Shown: piece after piece, positions 7,235-24,537 of the stretch | Position numbering within the stretch: position 1 is the first letter of the stretch | Layout of the letters: every line of letters starts with the position of its first letter | NCBI GenBank assembly: GCA_005879255.1 | Contig: VBKY01000095.1 | Coordinates: forward strand, 1 to 36,515 | DNA from: Deltaproteobacteria bacterium | GTDB lineage: Bacteria > Desulfobacterota_B > Binatia > UBA9968 | Direction: 5' to 3' | Length of the DNA: 36,515 nucleotides | Translations under genes and position numbers: made by a program | The notes under the pieces: model-generated | Seen by the model: only the letters and a program-made list of their open reading frames with translations | Told to the model about the DNA's origin: nothing | Database searches by the model: none

Positions 7235-8281
7235 TTATTCCGCCAAGAGTTTTTTCAATCTCGCAACCACTTCGGGCGGCTGGGCGATCACTTCCTTCGC
7301 CAGCGTCGCTAACTGTTCGCCGCCGACGGGTTCGACCGGCCAATTGCGCTTTTTTGCATCGGCCAGCAGCTCCGGATCTTTGAGTGTATTGATCCAAGCG
7401 TCTCGGAGAATTTTGAGGCGATCCGCAGCGATCCCCGGTGGCGCGGTCCATGGCCGGCCAAACTCGTTGGGCGCCATGACCAGGGTGGCCAGTCTGCGAT
7501 CGGCATCACGGGTTTTGTAGCGGTCCATTAAGTCATACAGCGTTGGTGTTTCCGGCAGCATAGGATCTCGCTTCCGGCCGGTCTGCACAAACGGACGAGT
7601 GAAACCTTTTTTGAACCAGGTGATGTGCGGCTCGCGGCCAAAAAACGCCGCGATGGTGATCAACCGACACTGCAACTCGCCACGTTCGAGCGCCACGTCG
7701 ATGTCCGCCGCGCCTTGATAGCCGGTGATGATGGTAAATTTTACCCCGAAAACCTCCTCGATAAGCTTGGGGATATGATAGGTAGTCGAAGCTGTGCCGG
7801 TGGAGCCGCATTTGGGCGGCTCGGTAGCCTTGCGCAGGTCGTCAATCGTTTTGTACGGACTATCGCCGCGAAAAAAAACCACGGACTCGGTCTGTTCCGG
7901 GGTGCCGAGCCAGCTAAATTTCGACCAATCATACTGCACTTCTTTGCGGCCCAGTTGATCCATATAAATTCCCGGATTGATCGAGCCGAGCGTAAGACCG
8001 TCCGGCTTCGTGACGTTGTAAACATAGTTAGCCGCGATCACCGAACCGGCGCCGGGCATGTTTTGCACCGTGACGCTCGGATTGCCGGGAATGTGCTTTC
8101 CCAAATAGGTTGCGATGTGCCGGGTCCAGAGATCGTAAAGATCGCCGGGCTGTCCGCCGCGGATGACTCTTATCGATTTGCCTTGGAAGAAATTTTCCTG
8201 GGCGTGAGCTGAAAAGCTAAGAGCCAAGAGGATGGCGAATAAACCAGAGATCAGAAGTCGAAGATCAGAGATCGGTTTCAC
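7235..8281 (-). CDS. TctC/Bug-like periplasmic solute receptor (paralogue A)
   Basis: Extracytoplasmic receptor of the tripartite tricarboxylate transporter (TctC/Bug) class, about 348 aa from the preferred start. The mature part (NFFQGKSIRVIRGGQPGDLY, then GKHIPGNPSVTVQNMPGAGS and TKPDGLTLG) matches three paralogues in this window. A Cys pair, PPKCGSTGT and LQCR, is shared with them. The frame is open to ATG 8392, where it overlaps the upstream stop, but codons from 8392 to about 8281 lie in repeat DNA. The GTG at 8279-8281 gives a proper signal peptide (KPISDLRLLISGLFAILLAL) and paralogue-like length, although it lacks a Shine-Dalgarno. No TctA/TctB membrane genes are nearby, so it is an orphan receptor. 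Confidence 0.85.
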   Translation of the reverse strand: MKPISDLRLLISGLFAILLALSFSAHAQENFFQGKSIRVIRGGQPGDLYDLWTRHIATYLGKHIPGNPSVTVQNMPGAGSVIAANYVYNVTKPDGLTLGSINPGIYMDQLGRKEVQYDWSKFSWLGTPEQTESVVFFRGDSPYKTIDDLRKATEPPKCGSTGTASTTYHIPKLIEEVFGVKFTIITGYQGAADIDVALERGELQCRLITIAAFFGREPHITWFKKGFTRPFVQTGRKRDPMLPETPTLYDLMDRYKTRDADRRLATLVMAPNEFGRPWTAPPGIAADRLKILRDAWINTLKDPELLADAKKRNWPVEPVGGEQLATLAKEVIAQPPEVVARLKKLLAE

Positions 8282-8397
8282 TGGAGACACATGGAGGACG
8301 CAGAGAAAGCGCTCCGCGCAGGCCGCGTCTTGGCGGTTAATTCCTGCCCTCTGATTTCTGAACGCCGACCTCTGATCGCTGACCTCTGTCATCTGAT
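8242..8397. repeat. GATCAGA/CTCTGAT heptamer arrays flanking a second repeat core
   Basis: Right arm: seven contiguous 7-nt units at 8349-8397 (CTCTGAT, TTCTGAA, CGCCGAC, CTCTGAT, CGCTGAC, CTCTGTC, ATCTGAT). Left arm: GATCAGA, AGTCGAA, GATCAGA, GATCGGT at 8249-8276, the complementary word. Between them, 8281-8348 contains a different repeat-like segment (GGAGACACATGGAGGACGCA). The right arm includes the stop codon of the 8389-9462 gene. The left arm is translated as the signal-peptide n-region of the 7235 receptor. Confidence 0.8.
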
Positions 8398-9462
8398 CAC
8401 CCTATCCGCCCGCGCCAGCACGTTGGGCGGAATCGTCAGGCCGATCTGCTTCGCTGCTTTGAGGTTGATGATCAGCTCGAACTTCTTCGGCTGCTCCACC
8501 GGAAGATCCGCAGGCTTAGCTCCCTTCAAGATCTTGTCCACATACGTAGCGGCGCGCCGGGTCAAGTCGGTTCTGCTCACGCCGTAGGATATAAGCGCCC
8601 CGGCTTCCACATTTACTCCGCTCTCGTATATCGCCGGGAGCCGGCTCTTTACCACGAGGTCTCCAATTTGTGTTCCCTGAGAAGCGAGCACAGGACCTCC
8701 CAGCAAGAGGAGTGCGTCAGCACGCTCTTTGCTTGCGGCTCGGAACGCAGCCTCAATATCCTTGGGACTTCGTACATCCAGGTATTGAACCTTCACCGCG
8801 AGTGCCCCGGCGGCGAGTTCCGTCTCTCTTAACGCTTGTGCGGTGCTCGCGTTGGTTGAAGTCCCAAGGACGGCCACGCGCGAGAACTTAGGAACTATCT
8901 CCTTCAGAAGCTCCAATCGTTTGCCGCTTAGCTCCGGGGAAAGAGTTGACAATCCCGTGATGTTTCTGCCAGGCCGCGCCAGGCTGGCGACGAACCCGTT
9001 GCCGACAGGATCGGGATCCTGCGTCATTACGATAGGGATCGTATTCGTCGCTTCATTGGCGGGACGGGTTGAACCTAAACCACTCGTGACGATGACGTCT
9101 ACCTTGATACGCACAAGCTCGGCCGCCAGCGCGGGGAGGCGATCGAGGTTTCCCTCTGCATATCGCCACTCAATGACAATGTTTTTCCCCTCCACGTAGC
9201 CAAGCTCGCGCAGGCCCTGCCGGAATGCCTCGGTGCGGGCTGAGATGGTAGAAAGGGATTGACCAGATAGGAATCCTATCCGGGGGATTTTCGTTGGCTG
9301 CTGGGCCTCTGCCCTCGCCCCGCAAATCGCGAGTATGACAGCGATAGCAACAATCCCCACCAATTTTTGATTTCGGATCCTTCGGCGTGGCTCAGGACAT
9401 GCTTTAGATTTTCGATTGTCGGAAAAAGAATCCAGCCATCGCACCCAAGATCTTCTATTCAT
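8389..9462 (-). CDS. ABC transporter substrate-binding protein, PF04392-like (tandem copy 3)
   Basis: Exported receptor of the ABC_sub_bind (TrpX-like, PF04392) family, about 357 aa. After a signal peptide ending GARAEAQQ, the typical opening KIPRIGFLSGQ follows, then FRQGLRELGYVEGKNIVIEW, IPIVMTQDPDPVG and the C-terminal LKAAKQIGLTIPP. These are family hallmarks. The start is uncertain: ATG 9460-9462 (GAAGAGA upstream) is preferred over TTG 9477. The n-region before the signal peptide contains a translated repeat (KSKACPEPRRR). Third of three tandem paralogues; no matching permease or ATPase gene adjoins, so it must work with a distant one or as a sensor. Confidence 0.9.
   Translation of the reverse strand: MNRRSWVRWLDSFSDNRKSKACPEPRRRIRNQKLVGIVAIAVILAICGARAEAQQPTKIPRIGFLSGQSLSTISARTEAFRQGLRELGYVEGKNIVIEWRYAEGNLDRLPALAAELVRIKVDVIVTSGLGSTRPANEATNTIPIVMTQDPDPVGNGFVASLARPGRNITGLSTLSPELSGKRLELLKEIVPKFSRVAVLGTSTNASTAQALRETELAAGALAVKVQYLDVRSPKDIEAAFRAASKERADALLLLGGPVLASQGTQIGDLVVKSRLPAIYESGVNVEAGALISYGVSRTDLTRRAATYVDKILKGAKPADLPVEQPKKFELIINLKAAKQIGLTIPPNVLARADRVIR
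9370..9422. repeat. Translated 'ACPEPRR' repeat, copy 1
   Basis: The core GGATCCTTCGGCGTGGCTCA and following bases, down to TTCGATTGTCGG, recur almost unchanged at 10488-10537. Read on the minus strand in frame it encodes SDNRKSKACPEPRRR, placed just before the signal peptide of the PF04392-like receptor. The neighbourhood (AATCGAAAATC words) continues into heptamer arrays, so this looks like repeat DNA absorbed into a gene's 5' end. Confidence 0.75.
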
Positions 9463-9476
9463 TCTCTTCGCCCCCA

Positions 9477-9511
9477 ATCGAAAATCGGCAATCGAAAATC
9501 TACAATCACTT
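9477..9511. repeat. ATCGAAA heptamer array, copy 1
   Basis: Five contiguous 7-nt units: ATCGAAA, ATCGGCA, ATCGAAA, ATCTACA, ATCACTT. The last contains the stop codon (9506-9508, minus strand) of the 9506-10576 gene. It fills most of the spacer between two tandem receptor genes. Confidence 0.82.
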
Positions 9512-10576
9512 GATGACTTTATCCGCCCGCGCCAGCACGTTGGGCGGAATCGTCAGGCCGATCTGCTTGGCCGCTTTCAGATTGATGCTGAACTCGAACT
9601 TCTTCGGTTGCTCGACAGGAATGTCGGCAGGCTTGGCTCCCTTCAAGATCTTGTCCACATACGTAGCCGCGCGGTGGCCTAAGTCGGTAAAGCTCACGCC
9701 GTAGCTCATCAACCCCCCGTCTTCCACATATTCAGACCTGTTGTAAAACGCCGGAAGTCGGCTCTTAACCGCGAGCTCTGCAATCTCTTTTCGGCGAGAA
9801 GCGGCGACGGGGCTGTTCAGCACGAGGACTGCGTCAGCACGCCCCTTGCCTGCGGCTCGGAATGCGCTCTCAATATCTTTGGAACTTAGTACGTCCAGGA
9901 ATTGAAGCTGTACCTTGAACGGTCCCGCGGCAAGTTCCGTCTCTCTTAACGCCGGTACGGTGCCCGGGTTGGTTGAAGTGCCGAAGACTGCTACGCGGGA
10001 GAGCTTGGGTAGGATTTCTTTGAGTAACTCCAGCCTCTTTCCTGCTAAGTCCGCGCCCAGCGAGGATAACCCAGTAATATTTCCACCAGGTCGCGCAAGA
10101 CTGGCCACAAACCCGTTTCCAACAGGATCGGGATCCTGGGACATGACAATGGGAATCGTAGAGGTTGCTTCTTTGGCGGCGCGGGTCGATCCCGCACCAG
10201 CCGTGACGATGATATCTACCTTGAGGCGCGCCAGTTCGGCCGCAAGCGCGGGTTCGCTATCGAGTTTTTCCTCTGTATATCGATACTCAATAACAATGTT
10301 TTTTCCCTCCACGTACCCAAGCTCGCGCAGACCTTGTCGGAATGCCTTGACGCGTTCCGCGGAAGAAAGGAAGGAAGCACCTAGGTATCCTATCCGCGGG
10401 ATCTTCTTCGGCTGCTGCGCCTCGGCCCTCGCCCCGCACATCGCGAGTGTGACAACGAGACTAACAATTCCCACCAATTTTCGATTTTGGATCCTTCGGC
10501 GTGGCTCAGGACATGCTTTGGATTTCCGATTGTCGGAGCAAGAATTCAAAAATCGTTTCAGCAATGTGCTGTGCAC
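9506..10576 (-). CDS. ABC transporter substrate-binding protein, PF04392-like (tandem copy 2)
   Basis: Paralogue of the 8389-9462 receptor, about 356 aa, with near-identical blocks (FRQGLRELGYVEGKNIVIEY, QDPDPVGNGFVASLARPGGN, the C-terminal LKAAKQIGLTIPPNVLARAD). The signal peptide ends GARAEAQQ. GTG 10574-10576, with GAGG about ten bases upstream, gives a length matching the sister gene; the frame is open to TTG 10597. The same repeat-encoded KSKACPEPRRR stretch precedes its signal peptide, so duplication of gene plus repeat, or two insertions, are both possible. Binding ligand unknown; in the family, aromatic amino acids are one known case (TrpX). Confidence 0.9.
   Translation of the reverse strand: MHSTLLKRFLNSCSDNRKSKACPEPRRRIQNRKLVGIVSLVVTLAMCGARAEAQQPKKIPRIGYLGASFLSSAERVKAFRQGLRELGYVEGKNIVIEYRYTEEKLDSEPALAAELARLKVDIIVTAGAGSTRAAKEATSTIPIVMSQDPDPVGNGFVASLARPGGNITGLSSLGADLAGKRLELLKEILPKLSRVAVFGTSTNPGTVPALRETELAAGPFKVQLQFLDVLSSKDIESAFRAAGKGRADAVLVLNSPVAASRRKEIAELAVKSRLPAFYNRSEYVEDGGLMSYGVSFTDLGHRAATYVDKILKGAKPADIPVEQPKKFEFSINLKAAKQIGLTIPPNVLARADKVIK
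10483..10537. repeat. Translated 'ACPEPRR' repeat, copy 2
   Basis: Second copy of the element at 9370-9422, with the same GGATCCTTCGGCGTGGCTCA core and a few substitutions. It is again in frame as the n-region of the signal peptide of a PF04392-like receptor. The third tandem paralogue (10626-11609) lacks it and has an ordinary short signal peptide. Confidence 0.75.
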
Positions 10577-10596
10577 GTGTTTTTCCTCACTCCTCA

Positions 10597-10631
10597 ATCG
10601 AAAATCGGCAATCGAAAATCGACGATTATTT
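10597..10631. repeat. ATCGAAA heptamer array, copy 2
   Basis: Five 7-nt units: ATCGAAA, ATCGGCA, ATCGAAA, ATCGACG, ATTATTT. The first three units are identical to the array at 9477. The final unit holds the TAA stop (10626-10628, minus strand) of the next receptor gene. Confidence 0.82.
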
Positions 10632-11609
10632 AATCACCTTATCCGCCCGCGCCAGCACCGACTGTGGAATCGTCACACCGATCTGCTTCGCCGTTTTGAG
10701 ATTGATCACCAGCTCGAACTTCTTGGGCCGCTCCACGGGAAGGTCGGCGGGTTTTGTTCCCTTGAGAATCTTATCCACGTACTCAGCGGCGCGCCGGAAC
10801 ATCTCTGAACGATCCTCTGTGTAAGTCATCAGCCCGCCTGCCTCAACATACTGAACGTTAGGATACACGCCTGGAAGCCGATTCTTTGCCGCCAGCTCTA
10901 CGATCCGTTTTTGGTGAGAGCTTAAGAACCCGCCGCCGCCCAACATAAGCGCCTGAGCACGCTTCTTTGTTGCAGCTTGAAATGCCTCTTCGATGTCGTT
11001 GGGCACTTTCACCTGTACGGATTGAATCGCTACCCGTAAGGAACTAGCCGCGGACTCTGTCTCATTCAACAGGTACTTTGTGTTTGGGTTGCCCGGACTC
11101 CACAGTAAAGCCACCCGAGAAAGCCTGGGGACAACTTCCTTGAGCAGTTCGAGCCGTTTTCCGCTCAACTCTGCGTTAATGGAGGTCAGCCCCGTAATGT
11201 TTCCACCCGGGCGCGCGAGGTCCGCAACGATCCCTAGCCTAACGGCATCCCCACTGTATGCCATAACAACAGGGATCGCCTTGGTCGCGTTCTTAGAAGC
11301 CTCTGCCGCTTCAGTCCCGGTGGTGAGGATGACGTCACAGTTGAGACGGACTAACTCAGCGGCAAGACTAGGGAGCCGCTCAATCTTGCCGTCCCAATAC
11401 CGAGATTCCATTGAGATGTTGTGCCCTTCGATGTAGCCGAGCTCGCGTAAACGTTCGCGAAATGGCTTGAGGCTTTCCGCGGAACTAGAAGCGGTGCTCC
11501 CTATTAGGTAACATACCCACGGGATTTTCTTCGGCTGCTGCGCGTCGACTGTAAAGCTAAGAGCCAAGAGCATAGCGCTAAGCACAAGGACAAAGATTTT
11601 TTTACTCAT
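10626..11609 (-). CDS. ABC transporter substrate-binding protein, PF04392-like (tandem copy 1)
   Basis: First and most divergent of the three tandem PF04392-like receptors, 327 aa. A clean signal peptide (MSKKIFVLVLSAMLLALSFT, cleavage near VDA-Q) leads into QPKKIPWVCYLIG; then FRERLRELGYIEGHNISMES and the family C-terminus INLKTAKQIGVTIPQSVLAR. ATG 11607-11609 is preferred to GTG 11622-11624 because it gives an ordinary signal peptide. Family members are periplasmic receptors. The conserved C-terminal 60 residues across all three copies contrast with more variable ligand-facing loops, so the copies may bind different ligands; that is inference. Confidence 0.9.
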   Translation of the reverse strand: MSKKIFVLVLSAMLLALSFTVDAQQPKKIPWVCYLIGSTASSSAESLKPFRERLRELGYIEGHNISMESRYWDGKIERLPSLAAELVRLNCDVILTTGTEAAEASKNATKAIPVVMAYSGDAVRLGIVADLARPGGNITGLTSINAELSGKRLELLKEVVPRLSRVALLWSPGNPNTKYLLNETESAASSLRVAIQSVQVKVPNDIEEAFQAATKKRAQALMLGGGGFLSSHQKRIVELAAKNRLPGVYPNVQYVEAGGLMTYTEDRSEMFRRAAEYVDKILKGTKPADLPVERPKKFELVINLKTAKQIGVTIPQSVLARADKVIK

Positions 11610-11661
11610 AGAGCTTCTTCGCACTCTAAATTTCGGAATCGGAAATGCATTGCTTCATGCA

Positions 11662-11797: not shown

Positions 11798-12721
11798 CTA
11801 GAGAAAAATCTCCTTGATGTAACGATACGCCGCGATGGCGGCGGTGGCGCCGTCGCCGGCGGATGTGATCGCTTGGGACGCGGAGTCCTCACGAATATCG
11901 CCGACGGCGTAAAGACCGTCTCGGGCGGTTTTCATTGAGCCGTCCGTCGGCACATGCCCGGTATCGCCCAGCTTTAAGACACTTCGCAAAAACTCCGTGT
12001 TGGGCTGCAAGCCAACGTAAACGAACAGTCCGGCGAGATCGACTTGCGATATTTCTCCCGACGTCACGTTGCGAACCCGCACACCGGTGACAACGTCGTC
12101 GCCGAGAATTTCTTCGATCGCGCTTTGATAACGCGGGACTATTTTTGAATTGTCCAACACTCTTTGTCGATACGAGTTTTGAGCAGAGAATTGTTCAGAA
12201 TTATGGAAGAGTACAACCTGCTCGGCAAAATTCGCCAGCGTGAGCGCCTCTTGGAGCGCCGAGTCACCGCCGCCGACCACGCCGACGACTTGGCCGTCGT
12301 AGAGCGGGCCGTCGCAGCTGGCGCAGTGGCTGACGCCGCGGCCCATTAATTTTTCCTCGCCGGGCACGCCTAGGTTTTTGAGCTTCGATCCGGTGGCGAC
12401 GATGATGGCTTTGGCGCGGTGGCGTTCTTCGTCGCTGATCACGGACCACAAGCGATCCTGCGCTTCCAGGCTAGAAATTTCGGCGCGCTGGAATTCCGCG
12501 CCTTGATCCGCCGCTTGACGTTGCACCGTTGGACACAGGTCATAACCGGCGATGCCATCCGGAAAGCCGGGGAAGTCTTCGATCTTCTCGATATTGATCA
12601 GATGACCGCCGGGGATGGTTGATTCCAATATCAATGTGGAAAGACCGTAACGCGCGGAGAATAAACCCGCCGTCAAACCGGCGAGGCCGGAACCAACGAT
12701 TATGACGTCGTATTCAGCCAT
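11798..12721 (-). CDS. trxB: Thioredoxin reductase-like FAD/dithiol oxidoreductase
   Basis: Low-molecular-weight thioredoxin reductase fold, 307 aa. FAD-binding GSGLAG (10-15), redox-active C133-A-S-C136 (SHCASCDG), second nucleotide-binding GGGDSA (about 150-155) and the C-terminal FAD motif VGDI are all present. Bacterial TrxB normally has HRRxxFRA after the second Rossmann strand, whose arginines hold the NADPH 2'-phosphate; here the site reads HNSEQFSA (173-180) with no arginine. This suggests NADH, ferredoxin or another donor rather than NADPH. It lies in the same direction as a TctC-like receptor and the selenoprotein gene, so it may reduce that Sec/Cys centre directly or through a thioredoxin. 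ATG at 12719-12721. Confidence 0.92.
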   Translation of the reverse strand: MAEYDVIIVGSGLAGLTAGLFSARYGLSTLILESTIPGGHLINIEKIEDFPGFPDGIAGYDLCPTVQRQAADQGAEFQRAEISSLEAQDRLWSVISDEERHRAKAIIVATGSKLKNLGVPGEEKLMGRGVSHCASCDGPLYDGQVVGVVGGGDSALQEALTLANFAEQVVLFHNSEQFSAQNSYRQRVLDNSKIVPRYQSAIEEILGDDVVTGVRVRNVTSGEISQVDLAGLFVYVGLQPNTEFLRSVLKLGDTGHVPTDGSMKTARDGLYAVGDIREDSASQAITSAGDGATAAIAAYRYIKEIFL

Positions 12722-12864: not shown

Positions 12865-13923
12865 TTATTCCCCCAGGAGTTTTTTCAGCCGTTGGATAAC
12901 TTCCGGCGGCTGCGCGATCACCTCTTTGGCCAGCGATTCAAGCTCCTCACCGGCTACGGGTCCGACGGGCCATCCGCGCTTTTTTGCCTCGGCCAAAAAT
13001 TCGCTATCTTTGACTGTTCTATTCCACGCCTCGCGCAAGGTTTTTATTCGCTCGGCAGGGACTCCGGGAGGAGTTACAATCGGACGACCAAAGATATTCG
13101 CCGCCAGGATGACCGTAGCCAAGCGCCGCCCGTTCTCGGGTGTTTTGTACTGGTCCATTAGCTCATGGAGAGTGGAGACATCCGTCAATGAAGTTTCCCG
13201 TTTTTTCCCGGTCTGAGCGAGGGGACGAACAAATCCATTTTTGCTCCAGGTAAGGTAAGGCTCGCGGCCGAAATAGGCCGTGGTGGAAACTGCACGACAG
13301 TGCACCTCGCCCCTCTCGATGGCGAGGTCAACATCCGGCCCGCCCTGATAGCCCGTGATCATAGTGAGCTTTGTTCCGAGGGTCTCTTCCATAAGCTTGG
13401 GTACTAGGTATAAAAACGAGCCTGTCCCCGTGGAACCGCATTTGGCCGGTTCCTTGGCTGCGCGTATGTCTTCGATACTTTTGTAAGGGCTATCCCGGCG
13501 GGTAATAAACACCCATTCGGTTTGCTCCGGTGTGCCGATCCAATTAAATCTTGCCCAGTCGAATTGCACTTCCTTTCGCCCAATGAGCTGGTCCATGTAG
13601 ATTCCCGGAAGAAGAGCGCCGATGGTGAGCCCATCCGGTTTGGCAACGTTGTAAATTTGATTCGCTGCAATCACTGAGCCGGCGCCTGCCACGTTTTGTC
13701 CGACGATCGCGGGGTTGCCGGCGATGTGCTTTCCCATGTGGTTGGCGAACAGGCGTGCCCAACCGTCATAGAGAGATCCGGCCTGATTGCCGATGATGAG
13801 CCTTATGCTCTTTCCCTGATAAAAAGGGGCTTGTGCCTGGAGCGTCGTGGTAAAGGTGAGACTCGATGCAACAAAGAAACAGAGATAAAACGTAACGGCC
13901 AAGCCTCTGGAAAATTTCGTCAT
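12865..13923 (-). CDS. TctC/Bug-like periplasmic solute receptor (paralogue B)
   Basis: Orphan TctC/Bug-class receptor, 352 aa. Signal peptide MTKFSRGLAVTFYLCFFVAS... cleaved near LQA-Q, then APFYQGKSIRLIIGNQAGSL, GKHIAGNPAIVGQNVAGAGS and AKPDGLTIG, as in the other paralogues. The conserved Cys pair is PAKCGSTGT and VHCR. The ATG (13921-13923) has AGGAGG at ideal spacing. It sits between the selenoprotein and the trxB-like gene on the same strand, so the operon may couple uptake of one compound with its redox conversion. No TctA/TctB partner is seen. Confidence 0.9.
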   Translation of the reverse strand: MTKFSRGLAVTFYLCFFVASSLTFTTTLQAQAPFYQGKSIRLIIGNQAGSLYDGWARLFANHMGKHIAGNPAIVGQNVAGAGSVIAANQIYNVAKPDGLTIGALLPGIYMDQLIGRKEVQFDWARFNWIGTPEQTEWVFITRRDSPYKSIEDIRAAKEPAKCGSTGTGSFLYLVPKLMEETLGTKLTMITGYQGGPDVDLAIERGEVHCRAVSTTAYFGREPYLTWSKNGFVRPLAQTGKKRETSLTDVSTLHELMDQYKTPENGRRLATVILAANIFGRPIVTPPGVPAERIKTLREAWNRTVKDSEFLAEAKKRGWPVGPVAGEELESLAKEVIAQPPEVIQRLKKLLGE

Positions 13924-14026: not shown

Positions 14027-15688
14027 TCATCTCCACTCATCGACGGAAACAGTCTTTTGATAATTGCAGCCCATGATGCGCCAGTAGCCATTGGTCTCGC
14101 CGCCGACGACCACGACATGGATTTCGTCGAGCTTGAACATCTTGATCATTTCGTCCGGCGCAGCTTTCAATTTCGACGCGTAGGGTTCCTCGCCGAATGT
14201 CGCTCTGGGGTAGATGTAATTCTGAATCAGCTGGTAATCCCAATACTCGCCGGCCGGCATCAGCGCGTTCTCGTAAACCCACTCGATCATTTTTTCCTTG
14301 GTATCGAAGCCGCCGCGGTCGATATATTGCCTGGCTGCGATCGGGTCGAGTAAGAAAGTCGGCGCGCTGTGGGCGTCCATGCCGCGCAGCATGTTGCGCA
14401 CATGCTCGCGCCAGTATTTTTCCCGCACGCCGAGAGTAAATGCCGTGGAGCGGCAACCGGTGAAAATACTCAAGGTGCTGTCGGCCGGCTTGAATCCATG
14501 CTGCACGTGGAACGGCGCCCACGGACTGCGCTCTTCATTCTCGGCGAAGGTGACAGTACCGTACGCGTAGCCGTTGCCCTGGGAGCCCATGTAGCTATCT
14601 CCGGGGAGCGAGCCGCCCTGGAGATTTTGCGATAGCAAGCCATAGGCGCGGCCGATGGTCGCGTTGGCGTGATTGTACGGCGCCATGGCGCCGGTGCCGG
14701 AGTTCATGCCGATCTCGTTACGAATCGGACCGTTGACGACGACCATCGCAGCCATCGAACTGGTCGTGCTGCCGCGCGCGCTCACGCCGCTCGAAGCGAG
14801 CGCCAGTATCAGCGGAAAGTACTCCGGTCGCGCTCCCGCCATCACCGCGTTAACCGCTACCTTTTCAACCGTGAATTCCCAATACTGCCGAAATTGGTTC
14901 GAGCGCATATGCCCCGCGACTTCGTCCGGCTTGCGGCTCGTGTGCGCGAGCATTTCTCGCACTTTTCTTTCCGTCGGCAGAACGATCGGCAGCTTGTCCG
15001 TCCAATTATTCTCCAGGAACAAACGCTGCAGGTTCTCGTCCGTGTCGGAGTCGACCAGTCGCGGCGTCGAGCGCTCGAACTTGATCTCTTTGATGCGATC
15101 TCCCTCGGCGGGACGGGTGAGGCCTTCGATGACTTCTTGCATCACCGGCCGGCCGCTGATCGGGCTCTTGCCTTCGACATAGGCGCGCAGTTGTTCCACG
15201 GTCTTACCCATCACCGGCTGGGGCACGAAAGTGTAACGCGCCTCGGGCATGCCGTGCATTCGGGTCACCGATTGCACCGCCTTCTCGAAGGCGTTGGTGT
15301 GGATAGCGACGGTGGGCACACCGTACTTGCTATCGAGAGCGATTGCGTGCACGGCGACCGCCGGCGCGCAGGTACTTCAATGGCCGACACCGATGATGGC
15401 GCCGTCGCCGTTGGCTTTGATCATCTCCCAGGTCTTGGGATCGTCTTTTGTGTAGACGCTCGACATCTCTACGAGCTTGATCGTCACCGACGGCATGTGA
15501 TCGGCGAACCAATCCTGCACCTGGCGCAGGAAAAGCCCCGAGTCGTCGAAGCGCGGGTCGACTAAATAAAGGGTCTTGCCGTCAAGGCTCTCCAAGCGCG
15601 GCGCCATTGGTTTCGGCGTAATCTTTGGTGGAAAGCCTACCGGATTAAGCACCGAGATTTTGTCCGTTTCGTTAATGCCGTCGGCCAT
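14027..15688 (-). CDS. UGSC-type selenoprotein with in-frame TGA (selenocysteine 104)
   Basis: One 553-residue protein if the TGA at 15377-15379 is decoded as selenocysteine. The frame is open on both sides (103 residues before, 449 after) and sequence context flows across it: DGAIIGVGH-U-STCAPAVAVHAI, a U-x-x-C redox motif (U104, C107). Length and layout match what I recall as the UGSC family of (seleno)proteins, which has U/C-G-S-C at this place; glycine reductase GrdB has a similar U-x-x-C. A SECIS-like hairpin follows immediately. The start at 15686-15688 has AAGGAGG. A receptor and a thioredoxin-reductase-like gene follow on the same strand. Reaction unknown; a reductive cleavage is plausible. 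The alternative, a nonsense mutation, fits less well. Confidence 0.85.
15344..15370 (-). promoter_or_regulatory. SECIS-like hairpin directing selenocysteine insertion
   Basis: Read on the minus strand, it begins six bases after the TGA. Arms UGCGCGC-CGGC and GCCG-U-GCACGCA enclose the tetraloop GGUC. This gives 11 positions with ten Watson-Crick pairs, one C-A mismatch and one bulged U. The loop Gs lie 17 nt after the UGA, inside the window usual for bacterial SECIS elements, which carry a GG (or GU) in the apical loop and often a bulged U. Here the bulge is on the 3' side, not the 5' side as in E. coli fdhF. Confidence 0.75.
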
Positions 15689-16038
15689 GTTTGAACCCTC
15701 CTTGCGCTATTTATGTCCAAGCCGGTCAAGTCCAGGATCATTGCCTTGCGCCGCCGTAAGATTGCGAATGGCGCAAGCGTCGGTTTATACCTCCCAAACC
15801 TATTCGAAGTTGCGAACCAGCGTCAAGCGCAAAGGAGCGGGCCGCTTTTCGCGACACCTTAGTTTCTAAACTTCGTGAAGAAGAATACGCGTGCTCTAGC
15901 TTTGTTGTATTTGATAGCGCACCGTCACTTCTCTCATCGCGTTGTGGGTCGGCGTCGTTGCAGGTTGGTCCGTTGAGCCGAATAATTGTAATCATCCAAG
16001 AAATTCAAGTCTCTCAATAACGTCACCGTTGCGCTCGA
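15689..16038. other. Non-coding spacer upstream of the selenoprotein gene
   Basis: 350 bp between the selenoprotein start and the pilin stop. It contains the AAGGAGG of the selenoprotein at its left edge and presumably that operon's promoter, but I cannot point to a convincing -35/-10 pair. An 85-codon minus-strand frame (15738-15995) has no family features. There is no heptamer array, unlike most spacers here. Confidence 0.5.
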
Positions 16039-16425: not shown

Positions 16426-16683
16426 CAAGCCACAACTTCCTTAAGCTTACAAAAGCTGGCGTATGGTAATTGATTCGTCCACGAAGCACCAGATAAATTT
16501 GCCCGCGATTTTGGTTTTGAACTGCGGGACCGACTCGCACGAAACCTTTGAGGACTAGGCTCAGCGCCAACTTTGTCGTGCCGCCGAATGTTCTTGACGT
16601 TCAATTTAGATCTGCCTTATGTTGCAAACCACGCCGGCTTCGTCGTTCAACTTGGCGTTTAGTTATTCAGAGTGGGAGGCGAA

Positions 16684-17715
16684 ATGAAAAAGACGAGTAT
16701 TTGGCTCTTGTCCATTCTCTTGTGGTCGGTCGAAGCTGTGGCGCAAACTCCCTATTATCAGGGTAAAACTATCAGGGTCATCGTCGGCTATCCGGCGGGC
16801 AGCGCCCACGACCTGTGGGCGCGGCTGATCGCGCCGCAACTTACCAAGCATATTCCCGGCAACCCCGCCACGGTGGTCCAGATCATGTCCGGCGCCGGCT
16901 CGATGACGGCGACCAATTATATATACACCGTTGCGAAGCCCGACGGTTTAACGCTCGGTGTCAACAACGCGGCGCTCTACTTCGAACAGCTTCTGAAAAA
17001 GAAAGAAGTTCAATACGACTGGTCAAAAATCACCTGGGTCGGCAGCACGACGCCAACGACCCCTATGTTGTACATGTGGGCGAACACTCCCTACAAGACC
17101 ATCCATGACGTGCGGACCGCGACGGTGCCGCCGAAGTGCGGCGCAACGGGCACGGGGAATACAGGCTATTATCTTCCGAAATTGCTCGAACAAACCATTG
17201 GCGCTAAGTTTCAGATTGTCACCGGCTATCAAGGGGGCGCCGATATTGAAATAGCGGTCGAGCGCGGCGAAGTGCAGTGTCGCGCGTTCACCATCCAGGT
17301 TTTCTACGGCCGCGAGCCGTTCCATACCTGGCGCAGTAAAAATCAAGTGCGCGTTTTGGTTCAAGGCGGGAAAAAGCGCGACCCGCGATTGGCCGATACG
17401 CCACTGCTCAGTGAATTGATGGAGCAATACAAGACTTCGGATTTAGATCGCCGCTTGGTAACCGTGATGCTCGGTTCAGGCGAATTCGGCGCCGCACCGA
17501 TGTTCGCAGCGCCTGGAACGCCACCGGAACATATCAAGCTTTTGCGCGCGGGTTATGCCAAGGCGCTGGCAAGTCCCGAATTAATTGCCGACGCCAAAAA
17601 ACAGGGTCTCGAACCTGAGCTTATTCACGGCGACGAGATCGAAGCGCTGGCAAAAGAAGTATTGAATCAGACGGCCGAGGTCGTCGCTTCGATGAAGAAC
17701 GTCATGGGCGAATAA
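16684..17715 (+). CDS. TctC/Bug-like periplasmic solute receptor (paralogue C)
   Basis: Orphan TctC/Bug-class receptor, 343 aa, first gene of the plus-strand series. Signal peptide MKKTSIWLLSILLWSVEAVA-Q, then TPYYQGKTIRVIVGYPAGSA, TKHIPGNPATVVQIMSGAGS and AKPDGLTLG. The Cys pair PPKCGATGT and VQCR is conserved. ATG 16684-16686 has GGGAGG at good spacing; the frame's GTG at 16672 adds only four residues. It is followed at 62 bp by an NMT1-like receptor, an unusual pairing of two different receptor classes with no membrane component. Confidence 0.9.
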   Translation: MKKTSIWLLSILLWSVEAVAQTPYYQGKTIRVIVGYPAGSAHDLWARLIAPQLTKHIPGNPATVVQIMSGAGSMTATNYIYTVAKPDGLTLGVNNAALYFEQLLKKKEVQYDWSKITWVGSTTPTTPMLYMWANTPYKTIHDVRTATVPPKCGATGTGNTGYYLPKLLEQTIGAKFQIVTGYQGGADIEIAVERGEVQCRAFTIQVFYGREPFHTWRSKNQVRVLVQGGKKRDPRLADTPLLSELMEQYKTSDLDRRLVTVMLGSGEFGAAPMFAAPGTPPEHIKLLRAGYAKALASPELIADAKKQGLEPELIHGDEIEALAKEVLNQTAEVVASMKNVMGE

Positions 17716-22302: not shown

Positions 22303-23448
22303 ATGGCTGACAGATTCGATCTGTTACTAACCGGCGGCACTGTTCTTAACCCAGCGACAAGCATCAATCAAAAGCTTGACGTTGGCGTCGCCGGCGATCG
22401 TGTCACGGCGATTCAAGCCAATCTGCCGCGCGCCAACGCGAAAACAGTTTTGGACGTTACCGGCTGTTACATCACTCCAGGTCTGATCGACTTTCACGTG
22501 CACAGCTACTGGGGCGTGAACCCTTACGGCTGCAATCTGGACTCCCTTTGTCTTGCTACCGGTGTGACGACCACGATGGACGCTGGCTCTGCGGGGCCGG
22601 TGAATTTTCTCGGGTTTAGAAAGCTTGTTCACGAGCAATCCAAGACTCGTATGCTAGGGTTCGTAGCGCTCGCTCAACATGGAGTCTTGAACGCGCCGGG
22701 AGAATTGCTTCAGCTCGGCTTTGCGGATTCCGACGGGGCGGCGGAAACGGTTGGCAACAATCGTGACATCGGCATCGGCATAAAAGTCCGCATGCATAAG
22801 AAAGCCATCGGCGACAATAGCCGCGAGGCGCTGCGTCTGGCAATCAAAGCCGGCGAGGCGACGCGCACGCCGATCATGGTACACGTGGGCGACACGGCGA
22901 TCGGTATGGACGAAATCGCCGACACGCTGCGGCCAGGCGATGTCATCACGCATTGCTACACGCCGCAGAAACCATCGATCATCGATGAATCCGGAAAGCT
23001 GCTGCCGTTAGTTCGTAAGGCCAAAGAGCGCGGCGTGATCTTCGACGTCGGCCATGCCGGCGGCCACTTTGATTTCAATCTCGTTGAGCGCGCCATGGGC
23101 GAGGGCATCGTGCCTGATGTCATCAGCTCGGATTTGCACGGCCGCTTGAGCCAGCCGGGCTTCGGCGTCGTCGGCGATTTACCTACGGTGCTGACCAAGT
23201 TCTTGCCATTGGGTTTGAGCTTCGAACAGATCATCGCCAACTGTACGGTAAACGCGGCCCGTGTTATCGGTTGGCAAGATCGAATCGGTAGCCTCGAAGT
23301 CGGTCGTGAAGCGGATATCGCCGTCCTGCAGATTCTCGACGATCCGGTGACGCTGCGCGATTCGGTCGGTGGAGAAAAACTGCATAAGCAACGCATTGCG
23401 GCGAAGTGGACGATTCGCGCGGGCGAAGTATTTACGGGCCGAGGGTAG
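22303..23448 (+). CDS. Amidohydrolase/deacetylase family metallohydrolase (carboxylysine type)
   Basis: Amidohydrolase-superfamily enzyme, 381 aa, of the dihydroorotase/deacetylase type. A short N-terminal beta-sandwich precedes the barrel. Ligands for a binuclear site: H65-x-H67 (DFHVHS), K161 (GIGIKVRM, candidate carboxylated lysine), H194 (MVHVGD), H217 (THCYTP) and D277 (SSDLHG). This set fits a cyclic amide hydrolase or N-acyl amino acid deacetylase. The C-terminal region (GSLEVGREADIAVLQI) closes the sandwich. Its TAG stop lies in a palindromic repeat. Possible role: opening a cyclic amide or imide in the surrounding catabolic series; inference. Confidence 0.88.
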   Translation: MADRFDLLLTGGTVLNPATSINQKLDVGVAGDRVTAIQANLPRANAKTVLDVTGCYITPGLIDFHVHSYWGVNPYGCNLDSLCLATGVTTTMDAGSAGPVNFLGFRKLVHEQSKTRMLGFVALAQHGVLNAPGELLQLGFADSDGAAETVGNNRDIGIGIKVRMHKKAIGDNSREALRLAIKAGEATRTPIMVHVGDTAIGMDEIADTLRPGDVITHCYTPQKPSIIDESGKLLPLVRKAKERGVIFDVGHAGGHFDFNLVERAMGEGIVPDVISSDLHGRLSQPGFGVVGDLPTVLTKFLPLGLSFEQIIANCTVNAARVIGWQDRIGSLEVGREADIAVLQILDDPVTLRDSVGGEKLHKQRIAAKWTIRAGEVFTGRG

Positions 23449-23472
23449 CGCACCGCATGCCGTGCCCTTACA
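23445..23472. repeat. GTAG-GGCAC-type palindrome, degenerate copy
   Basis: Imperfect palindrome centred on CCGCATGCCG, ending GCCCTTAC. It resembles the better copy at 24534-24560, with which it shares the GCCGTGCCCT arm. Its first bases include the TAG stop of the upstream amidohydrolase. Together the two copies bracket the frameshifted receptor gene. Confidence 0.65.
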
Positions 23473-23504
23473 TCTCAATAATCTTGCGAAGCAAAGAGGG
23501 GACG

Positions 23505-24537
23505 ATGCAACGAGTGGTTCCATTATTATTGGTCATTTTGTTTGGTTCGGTGTCCGGCGCCGCAGCGCAAACTCCCTATTATCAAGGTAAGACAATTACC
23601 ATTATCACGGGCAGCCAAACCGGCGACCTGTACGACATTTACGCGCGCATGATCGCGACGCACATGGGAAAGCATATTCCCGGCAATCCTGGCATTCTGG
23701 TTCAGAACATGACCGGCGCGGGCCATATCGTAGCGGCGAATTTTGTTTACGCCGTCGCTAAACCCGACGGCCTGACTTTGCTGGCTCCCAATCCGAATCT
23801 TTACATCGATCAACTGATTGGCCGGCCCGAGATCAAATTCGACTGGGCGAAATTTGCGTGGCTCGGCAATGCATCGCGCACGACGGACCTGCTTTACATG
23901 CGCACCGATGCTCCGTTCAAGACCATTGAAGATGTGCGCAGCGCCAAGGAGCCGCCCAAATGCGGCGCCACCGGCACTGGAACCACGGGATACCTGGTGC
24001 CGAGATTGTTGGAGGAGACGATCGGCGCCAAGTTCAATATCGTAACGGGATATAAAGGCGGCAACGAAGTCGACTTGGCGGTTGAGCGAGGTGAGATCCA
24101 GTGCCGGGCGTTTAGTCTTACCGCGTTTTTTGGCCGCGAGCCGTTTCACACCTGGCGAAAAAACAACTTCGTGCGCGCCATCATCCAGCTCGGCGAAAAG
24201 AGAGATAGCCGGTTGGCGGACGTACCGACCCTCAATGAATTGATGGACAAGCACAAGACGCCGGATGTCGGGCGAAGACTGGCCCGTATTGTAACCGCCT
24301 CGGAAATATTTCAACGCCCGTACATGGGCCCACCCGGCATGCGTCCGGAGCTTGTCAAAGTCATCCGCGAAGCGTTCGAGAAAACCTTAGAAGGACAATG
24401 CATTCTTGGAGGAAGTGAAAAGCAAAAAGCTCGATGCCGAGTACACGTCCGGTGAGGAAATGGAGACCTTGGCCAAAGAAATGATGTCCCAACGGCCGGA
24501 GATTATCGAACGATTGAGAAAAGTATTGGGCAAGTAG
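23505..24537 (+). pseudogene. TctC/Bug-like periplasmic solute receptor (paralogue D), frameshifted near its C-terminus
   Basis: Fourth TctC/Bug-class receptor. Start ATG 23505-23507 (GAGGGG upstream) gives signal peptide MQRVVPLLLVILFGSVSGAA-AQ; then TPYYQGKTITIITGSQTGDL, GKHIPGNPGILVQNMTGAGH and the Cys pair PPKCGATGT and IQCR. The frame is intact to about 24392. There an extra G in the GG at 24393-24394 shifts it into a false end at 24455. Dropping one G restores DNAFLEEVKSKKLDAEY and the paralogue-like end IIERLRKVLGK, stopping at TAG 24535-24537. It may be a recent mutation or a sequencing/assembly indel; only the last 50 or so residues are affected. Confidence 0.85.

Follow-up and report, generated by a model that had tools for sequence, protein, structure and literature searches.

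Does the TGA codon at 15379-15377 of contig VBKY01000095.1 (assembly GCA_005879255.1, Deltaproteobacteria bacterium; the whole stretch of 36,515 nucleotides (nt) is called the window here) terminate a gene, or does it encode selenocysteine (Sec)? The codon lies on the minus strand between two open frames of one phase, 103 amino acids (aa; 15688-15377) and 441 aa (15352-14027) long. When it is read through, the frames join into a 553-aa protein with GVGH-U-STC around the junction, as a preliminary description of this DNA had stated. That description took the product for a selenoprotein with a U-x-x-C motif, akin to the UGSC family, whose UGA is directly followed by a selenocysteine insertion sequence (SECIS). 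The comparisons reported below indicate that the gene in all probability encodes a Sec-decoded two-domain UGSC selenoprotein of this length.

The reading frame and residue 104

AAGGAGG stands 8 nt before the ATG at 15688, and no ribosome-binding site was found in the 40 nt upstream of GTG 15352, the earliest start codon of the 441-aa frame. Counting the junction at 15377-15379 itself and the gene's own stop, the window has nine TGA codons that join two frames in phase with 80 or more open codons on either side; an in-phase TGA between long frames is not rare in this window.

A scan of public genomes yielded 20 loci (L001-L020), 19 of which cover residue 104, the position of the TGA (L020 covers residues 378-552 only). 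The codon at this site is TGA in 10 relatives (L001-L008, L014 and L017) and TGC in nine (L009-L013, L015, L016, L018 and L019), i.e. a Sec or a Cys codon is present in 19/19. These counts bear out the proposed U-x-x-C selenoprotein, as well as the suggestion that relatives aligned at residue 104 would have Cys or TGA. L001 shares 90% protein identity with the window protein across residues 1-553, and its genome (G001) holds a second TGA-containing relative (G001:C327:2309-3946; 62% identity, residues 8-553). A second scan covered 118 genomes of the class of G001, with matches in 70 of them at E≤1e-30, and added the close TGA genes L036, L037, L039 and L040 as well as distant relatives (L035 and L038 duplicate L001 and L007). 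In L040 the reading frame shifts near residue 378, through a frameshift or an assembly error. Among the 30 loci fetched, nine distant relatives with 27-37% identity (L041-L047, L049 and L053) carry TGA at the site, in the motif U-G-S-C except for U-G-G-C in L049, and additional distant matches with an internal TGA are among the 118-genome matches listed. All 39 full-length relatives in alignment A3 have Cys at both 104 and 107. In a tree of 24 rows, the TGA and TGC genes lie on opposite sides of one branch with a support of 100/100; since the two sets sit either side of a single branch, one switch between TGA and TGC, rather than many, is indicated.

The hairpin after the UGA

The hairpin at 15344-15370, reported in the preliminary description with a bulged U and a GGUC loop 17 nt from the UGA, was recovered on refolding at -15.7 kcal/mol, with 10 pairs, one mismatch and a single bulged U in the 3' arm; its GGUC loop begins 17 nt past the UGA. 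The bacterial SECIS model, as set out in an excerpt of PMC13188914, comprises a loop of 3-9 nt on a stem of 4-16 base pairs (bp), a G in the first two loop positions, a length of 16-37 nt and a minimum free energy of -7.5 or lower, and the hairpin agrees with all four points. By itself, however, it is unremarkable and not beyond chance: folding as good was reached by 39 of 200 dinucleotide shuffles and by 632 of 5000 synonymous recodings, and in 41 of 176 windows taken along the gene the degree of structure, given the codons, is equally high. Its significance comes only with comparison.

We aligned the codons of 15 TGA genes, the window included, with pairwise nucleotide identities of 0.55-0.90, using columns with at least 13 rows. 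An invariant amino acid with a degenerate code was found in 147 columns, only 10 of which use a single codon. When only the 112 columns with four- or sixfold degeneracy are counted, the codon-invariant ones number five and are codons 108-112, the top of the hairpin; the remaining five of the 10 encode Ile, Tyr, Phe and Asn and are scattered along the gene. In the TGC genes, codon invariance was found in three of 51 such columns, 108 among them, and most of the hairpin-top conservation is lost; this comparison is limited to the first part of the gene, four TGC genes stopping at ~200 codons. The sequence GGTC at +18 is present in 15/15 TGA genes versus 2/9 TGC genes, and the 39 nt that follow the codon fold with a mean energy of -16.7 kcal/mol in the 15 TGA genes versus -7.8 kcal/mol in the nine TGC genes (Mann-Whitney p 1.7e-4), L014 having the weakest TGA hairpin (-8.2). 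For the same structure, 91.7% of pairs are kept in 12 distinct TGA sequences versus 71.1% in 9 TGC sequences. Seven of the nine distant TGA relatives have a different stem, GTCGTGG/CCACGAC, a perfect 7 bp close behind the TGA, with GGTC at +19 in L042 and L045; L043 and L044 fold in another way. What goes beyond chance is the conservation of TGA or TGC in 19/19 covering relatives and of the hairpin-top codons in the TGA genes. As the preliminary description had it, a SECIS probably lies just 3' of the UGA and would guide Sec decoding, a view supported by the comparison and not by the hairpin alone.

Selenocysteine machinery in the relatives' genomes

SelA and SelB score over cut-off in nine of the 10 first-set TGA genomes (the exception is G006), and a tRNA-Sec of at least 66 bits was found in six (G001, G002, G003, G005, G014 and G017) on scoring 127 or 150 candidates per genome. 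The Rfam tRNA-Sec cut-off of 47 bits also admits weaker matches of 47-53 bits, including those in G009, G010, G013 and G019, which we took for other tRNAs from the score gap and not from single checks. ARAGORN called tRNA-Sec at 4/4 high-scoring loci tested. SelD is over cut-off in all five TGA genomes searched for it (G001, G004, G006, G007 and G008), each time with an in-frame TGA. SelB was searched in the first-set genomes, and 13 further TGA genomes were searched for SelA and tRNA-Sec: SelA exceeds its cut-off in 12, all but G021, and a tRNA-Sec of at least 65 bits is present in 10 (not G021, G124 and G133); the four of them with close TGA genes (G036, G098, G104 and G126) have both.

Among the nine TGC genomes, four (G011, G012, G016 and G018) have SelA and SelB over cut-off; these four and G015, where the SelA and SelB matches are below cut-off only, have a tRNA-Sec of at least 75 bits. 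Neither SelA nor SelB is over cut-off in G009, G010, G013 and G019. Both are in G020, where site 104 is uncovered.

The UGSC domain and its kinship with GrdB

The proposed UGSC kinship was confirmed by the Pfam family UGSC (PF24696), which matches residues 13-172 with 87.8 bits against a cut-off of 25. The NCBIfam equivalog NF041046 (UGSC_fam) is reached by the distant relative L042 (139.4 bits) and not by the window protein (61.4 bits; cut-off 125). A structure model of the UGSC part consists of alternating strands and helices, and its best matches are alternating beta-alpha proteins; Foldseek gave no match at E≤0.001. A thioredoxin fold was proposed for UGSC in an excerpt of PMC2398784; no thioredoxin is among the 50 matches listed in our fold comparison, a list that does not exclude this fold.

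The window protein has no match to the families of glycine reductase selenoprotein B (GrdB), PF07355 and TIGR01917, at E≤1, and the L042 protein matches the GrdB profile with an E of 3.4e-4. When UGSC and GrdB profiles were compared with hhalign, the Sec positions fell on each other with a probability of 93.5% for the distant UGSC set and 86.7% for all sequences; 40 column shuffles of each gave at most 1.4%, and the N-terminal 310 columns of GrdB do not match UGSC (1.2% and 0.6%). The UGSC profile is a distant relative of the Sec-containing part of GrdB, a kinship seen mainly through UGSC relatives.

Searches in the class of G001 also turned up GrdB-like genes (L065-L084) in which the PF07355 match ends at the TGA of the Sec position, in 20/20 loci read. 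Many mostly small open frames, often of 140-260 codons, match only PF07355 positions ~200-345 in G038, G120, G082 and other genomes; they are possibly links between the GrdB and UGSC domains.

The C-terminal domain

Pfam gave no match at E≤0.01 to the C-terminal domain of the window protein, and neither Pfam nor NCBIfam gave one at E≤0.5 to L052, a protein that consists of the C-domain alone; the protein database contains at least 8000 homologues of the domain, all 8000 candidates scored being homologous. In four Cys relatives (L009, L013, L016 and L018) a stop interrupts the linker at ~residue 197; the C-domain behind it is open, with the frame unchanged in three of them and a different frame in L018. 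Among the distant TGA relatives, a second stop parts the two domains in L041, L042, L045 and L047, and both parts are in one frame in L043, L044, L046, L049 and L053. In six fetched proteins (L050, L054, L056, L057, L063 and L064) the C-domain follows a front part that contains C-x-x-C; the one scanned of the six, that of L050, is AhpC/thioredoxin-like. Since either UGSC or C-x-x-C front parts precede the C-domain, thiol or selenol redox domains recur with it. In alignment A3, C412 is Cys in 47 of 51 rows. According to an excerpt of PMC2398784, UGSC proteins occur fused to conserved domains of unknown function, and the fused domains usually have a conserved Cys.

Features of the window and neighbouring genes

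Positions of the selenoprotein gene, its parts and its downstream neighbours in the window
Feature	Position	Strand	Basis or remark
Whole selenoprotein gene (probable)	14027..15688	minus	553 aa with TGA read as Sec; stop TGA 14029-14027
Probable ribosome-binding site AAGGAGG	15697..15703	minus	precedes ATG 15688
UGSC domain, residues 1-197	15098..15688	minus	PF24696 match, structure model, fold comparison
In-frame TGA, putative Sec104 of U-S-T-C motif	15377..15379	minus	TGA in 10 and TGC in 9 of the 19 relatives with the site
SECIS-like hairpin, loop GGUC at 15359-15356	15344..15370	minus	folding and comparison
Codons 108-112, hairpin top	15353..15367	minus	codon alignment, 15 TGA genes
C-terminal domain, residues 198-553, predicted, no Pfam annotation	14030..15097	minus	split off in 4 relatives
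TctC-type solute-binding protein, next gene downstream	12865..13923	minus	PF03401, 66.8 bits
Thioredoxin-reductase-like flavoprotein, second gene downstream	11798..12721	minus	PF07992

The flavoprotein scores 319.8 bits with TIGR01292, below the cut-off of 343.45. Relatives of it lie close to the gene in L001, L002, L009, L010, L013 and L020, in the last of these on the other strand, and no other gene was seen to recur beside most of the 21 loci (window included). The flavoprotein is a possible electron donor.

The window contains four TctC-type solute-binding genes (7235-8392, 12865-13923, 16672-17715 and 23406-24455) and a run of three ABC_sub_bind-like genes (8389-11624); the genes at 12865, 16672 and 10626 were assigned with Pfam and the others of these two types by the likeness of their translations. 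The last stretch of 23406-24455 (plus strand) is off the family frame, with a paralogue-like C-terminal part in another frame there, owing to a frameshift or an assembly error.

Weighing the readings of the gene

TGC and TGA are one base apart and the window was read apart from the rest of its genome, so the TGA might have arisen in an ordinary Cys gene by nonsense mutation or through faulty sequencing, which would make the locus a pseudogene or an artefact. However, the TGA stands at the same codon in 10 of the 19 covering records and in nine distant loci, the flanks are open and conserved, and the hairpin codons are conserved in the TGA genes; conservation speaks strongly against this explanation, which we regard as extremely improbable. 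Two separate genes, with the TGA as a true stop of a 103-aa product and a 441-aa product started at GTG 15352, would agree with the 441-aa products in databases and with the separation of the UGSC part and the C-domain in some relatives. The stop in the separated relatives is at ~residue 197 and not at 104, though, no ribosome-binding site was seen before the GTG, and a break at 104 would bisect the UGSC match; this arrangement is hardly credible. If the UGA were read as Cys, Trp or another residue through an altered code or other suppression, the presence of Cys as the alternative residue at the site would be accommodated, but the same gene terminates at TGA 14029-14027, SelA and SelB accompany the TGA in nine of 10 genomes, and the hairpin-codon conservation tracks the TGA, which leaves such decoding very unlikely. 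Incorporation of Sec at UGA 104 has, in our judgement, a very high likelihood: SelB and Sec-tRNA would decode it as selenocysteine under the guidance of the hairpin, which lies 17 nt downstream.

Sec104 and Cys107 would then form a selenol/thiol pair just past the third strand of the UGSC domain, and redox use of this pair is likely by analogy. The pair may reduce or reductively cleave a small organic substrate held by the C-terminal domain and may be recharged from NAD(P)H through the nearby thioredoxin-reductase-like flavoprotein; in a sister clade, Cys takes the place of Sec, with the two domains sometimes parted. That the flavoprotein supplies electrons for cleaving a small substrate reductively is plausible, and we put it forward tentatively. 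The protein could instead be a real selenoprotein with a helper role, in redox repair or in the manner of a thioredoxin, beside which the TctC and flavoprotein genes lie by coincidence, a reading that differs in role only. No flavoprotein is close by in 14 of 21 loci, though several of them end soon after the gene, and some C-domain proteins have a thioredoxin-like front part instead of UGSC; on the other side, the UGSC model best matches alternating beta-alpha proteins and its kin GrdB is a substrate-cleaving enzyme. We consider the helper role a genuine possibility, short of an even chance.

Several observations weigh against a Sec-decoded, substrate-reducing UGSC protein. The 15 TGA genes are not independent, as one branch parts them from the TGC genes. 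No hairpin pair changes on both sides within the TGA genes, a shuffle control of the pair count gives no support (500 of 500 as high), and two of the seven distant stems (L046 and L053) are without G in the first two loop places. The Sec machinery was read in the relatives' genomes, which stand in for that of the source organism. In G006, a TGA genome, SelA, SelB over cut-off and tRNA-Sec were all not found, probably through incompleteness of the genome, since it has SelD with an in-frame TGA; SelA and tRNA-Sec were both not found in G021 (the genome of L049), nor was tRNA-Sec in G004, G007, G008, G124 and G133 among the 127 or 150 candidates scored in each. The close UGSC set alone matches GrdB weakly in hhalign (6.7%, or 35.3% when Sec is written as C). 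Only seven of the 21 loci, window included, have the flavoprotein close by, although several loci end soon after the gene and its absence there means little. Finally, the substrate and the redox role rest on inference.

Database entries and comparison with known systems

The preliminary description expected automatic gene callers to split such a gene, and the databases agree: of the best 120 database hits, 67 are 546-569 aa long (65 with CSTC and 2 with CSSC), and 53 are only 410-441 aa, the length of a product begun past the site. The 11 of these 53 placed in alignment A3 all lack residue 104, and two 441-aa entries (P0027 and P0030) are named 'UGSC family (seleno)protein'. Some of the short entries may have been cut by contig ends. 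Up to 53 of the best 120 hits therefore begin roughly one fifth into the protein and miss its catalytic residue.

The UGSC family and a UGSC fusion were published in 2008 (PMC2398784), and the family is in print also in PMC13188914 and PMC9312934; in an excerpt of the first of these two, a 2026 review, UGSC is counted among the selenoproteins of largely uncharacterised function. The gene is a further member of a known family, plus a lead on the function of that family. The two-domain fusion, and the result that the hairpin lacks significance unless relatives are compared, are what is added to the earlier reading of the gene. The fused gene links the UGSC family to one partner domain, a chemistry for UGSC is suggested by its kinship with GrdB and an electron source by the flavoprotein, and each of the three links is open to test. 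It is conceivable, if rather speculative, that UGSC selenoproteins are a stripped-down GrdB-type catalytic branch which, with the C-domain, makes up a system for Sec-dependent reductive cleavage in uncultured bacteria, supplied by a flavoprotein rather than by the glycine reductase partners.

With GrdB (PF07355, TIGR01917) the likeness lies in the C-terminal part of GrdB, where Sec is followed by x-x-C or x-x-S. With the UGSC family (PF24696, NF041046; 'UGSC-containing' in an excerpt of PMC2398784), the window protein shares the domain match and the U-x-x-C motif with Sec or Cys, but its motif is U-S-T-C and not U-G-S-C, and it is fused to a C-terminal domain of ~350 aa. The UGSC/Unknown_1 fusion, as excerpted from the same paper, likewise combines UGSC with a domain without an assigned function, and C412 of the window protein parallels the conserved Cys usual in such fused domains; the window C-domain is set beside Unknown_1 by the published description only.
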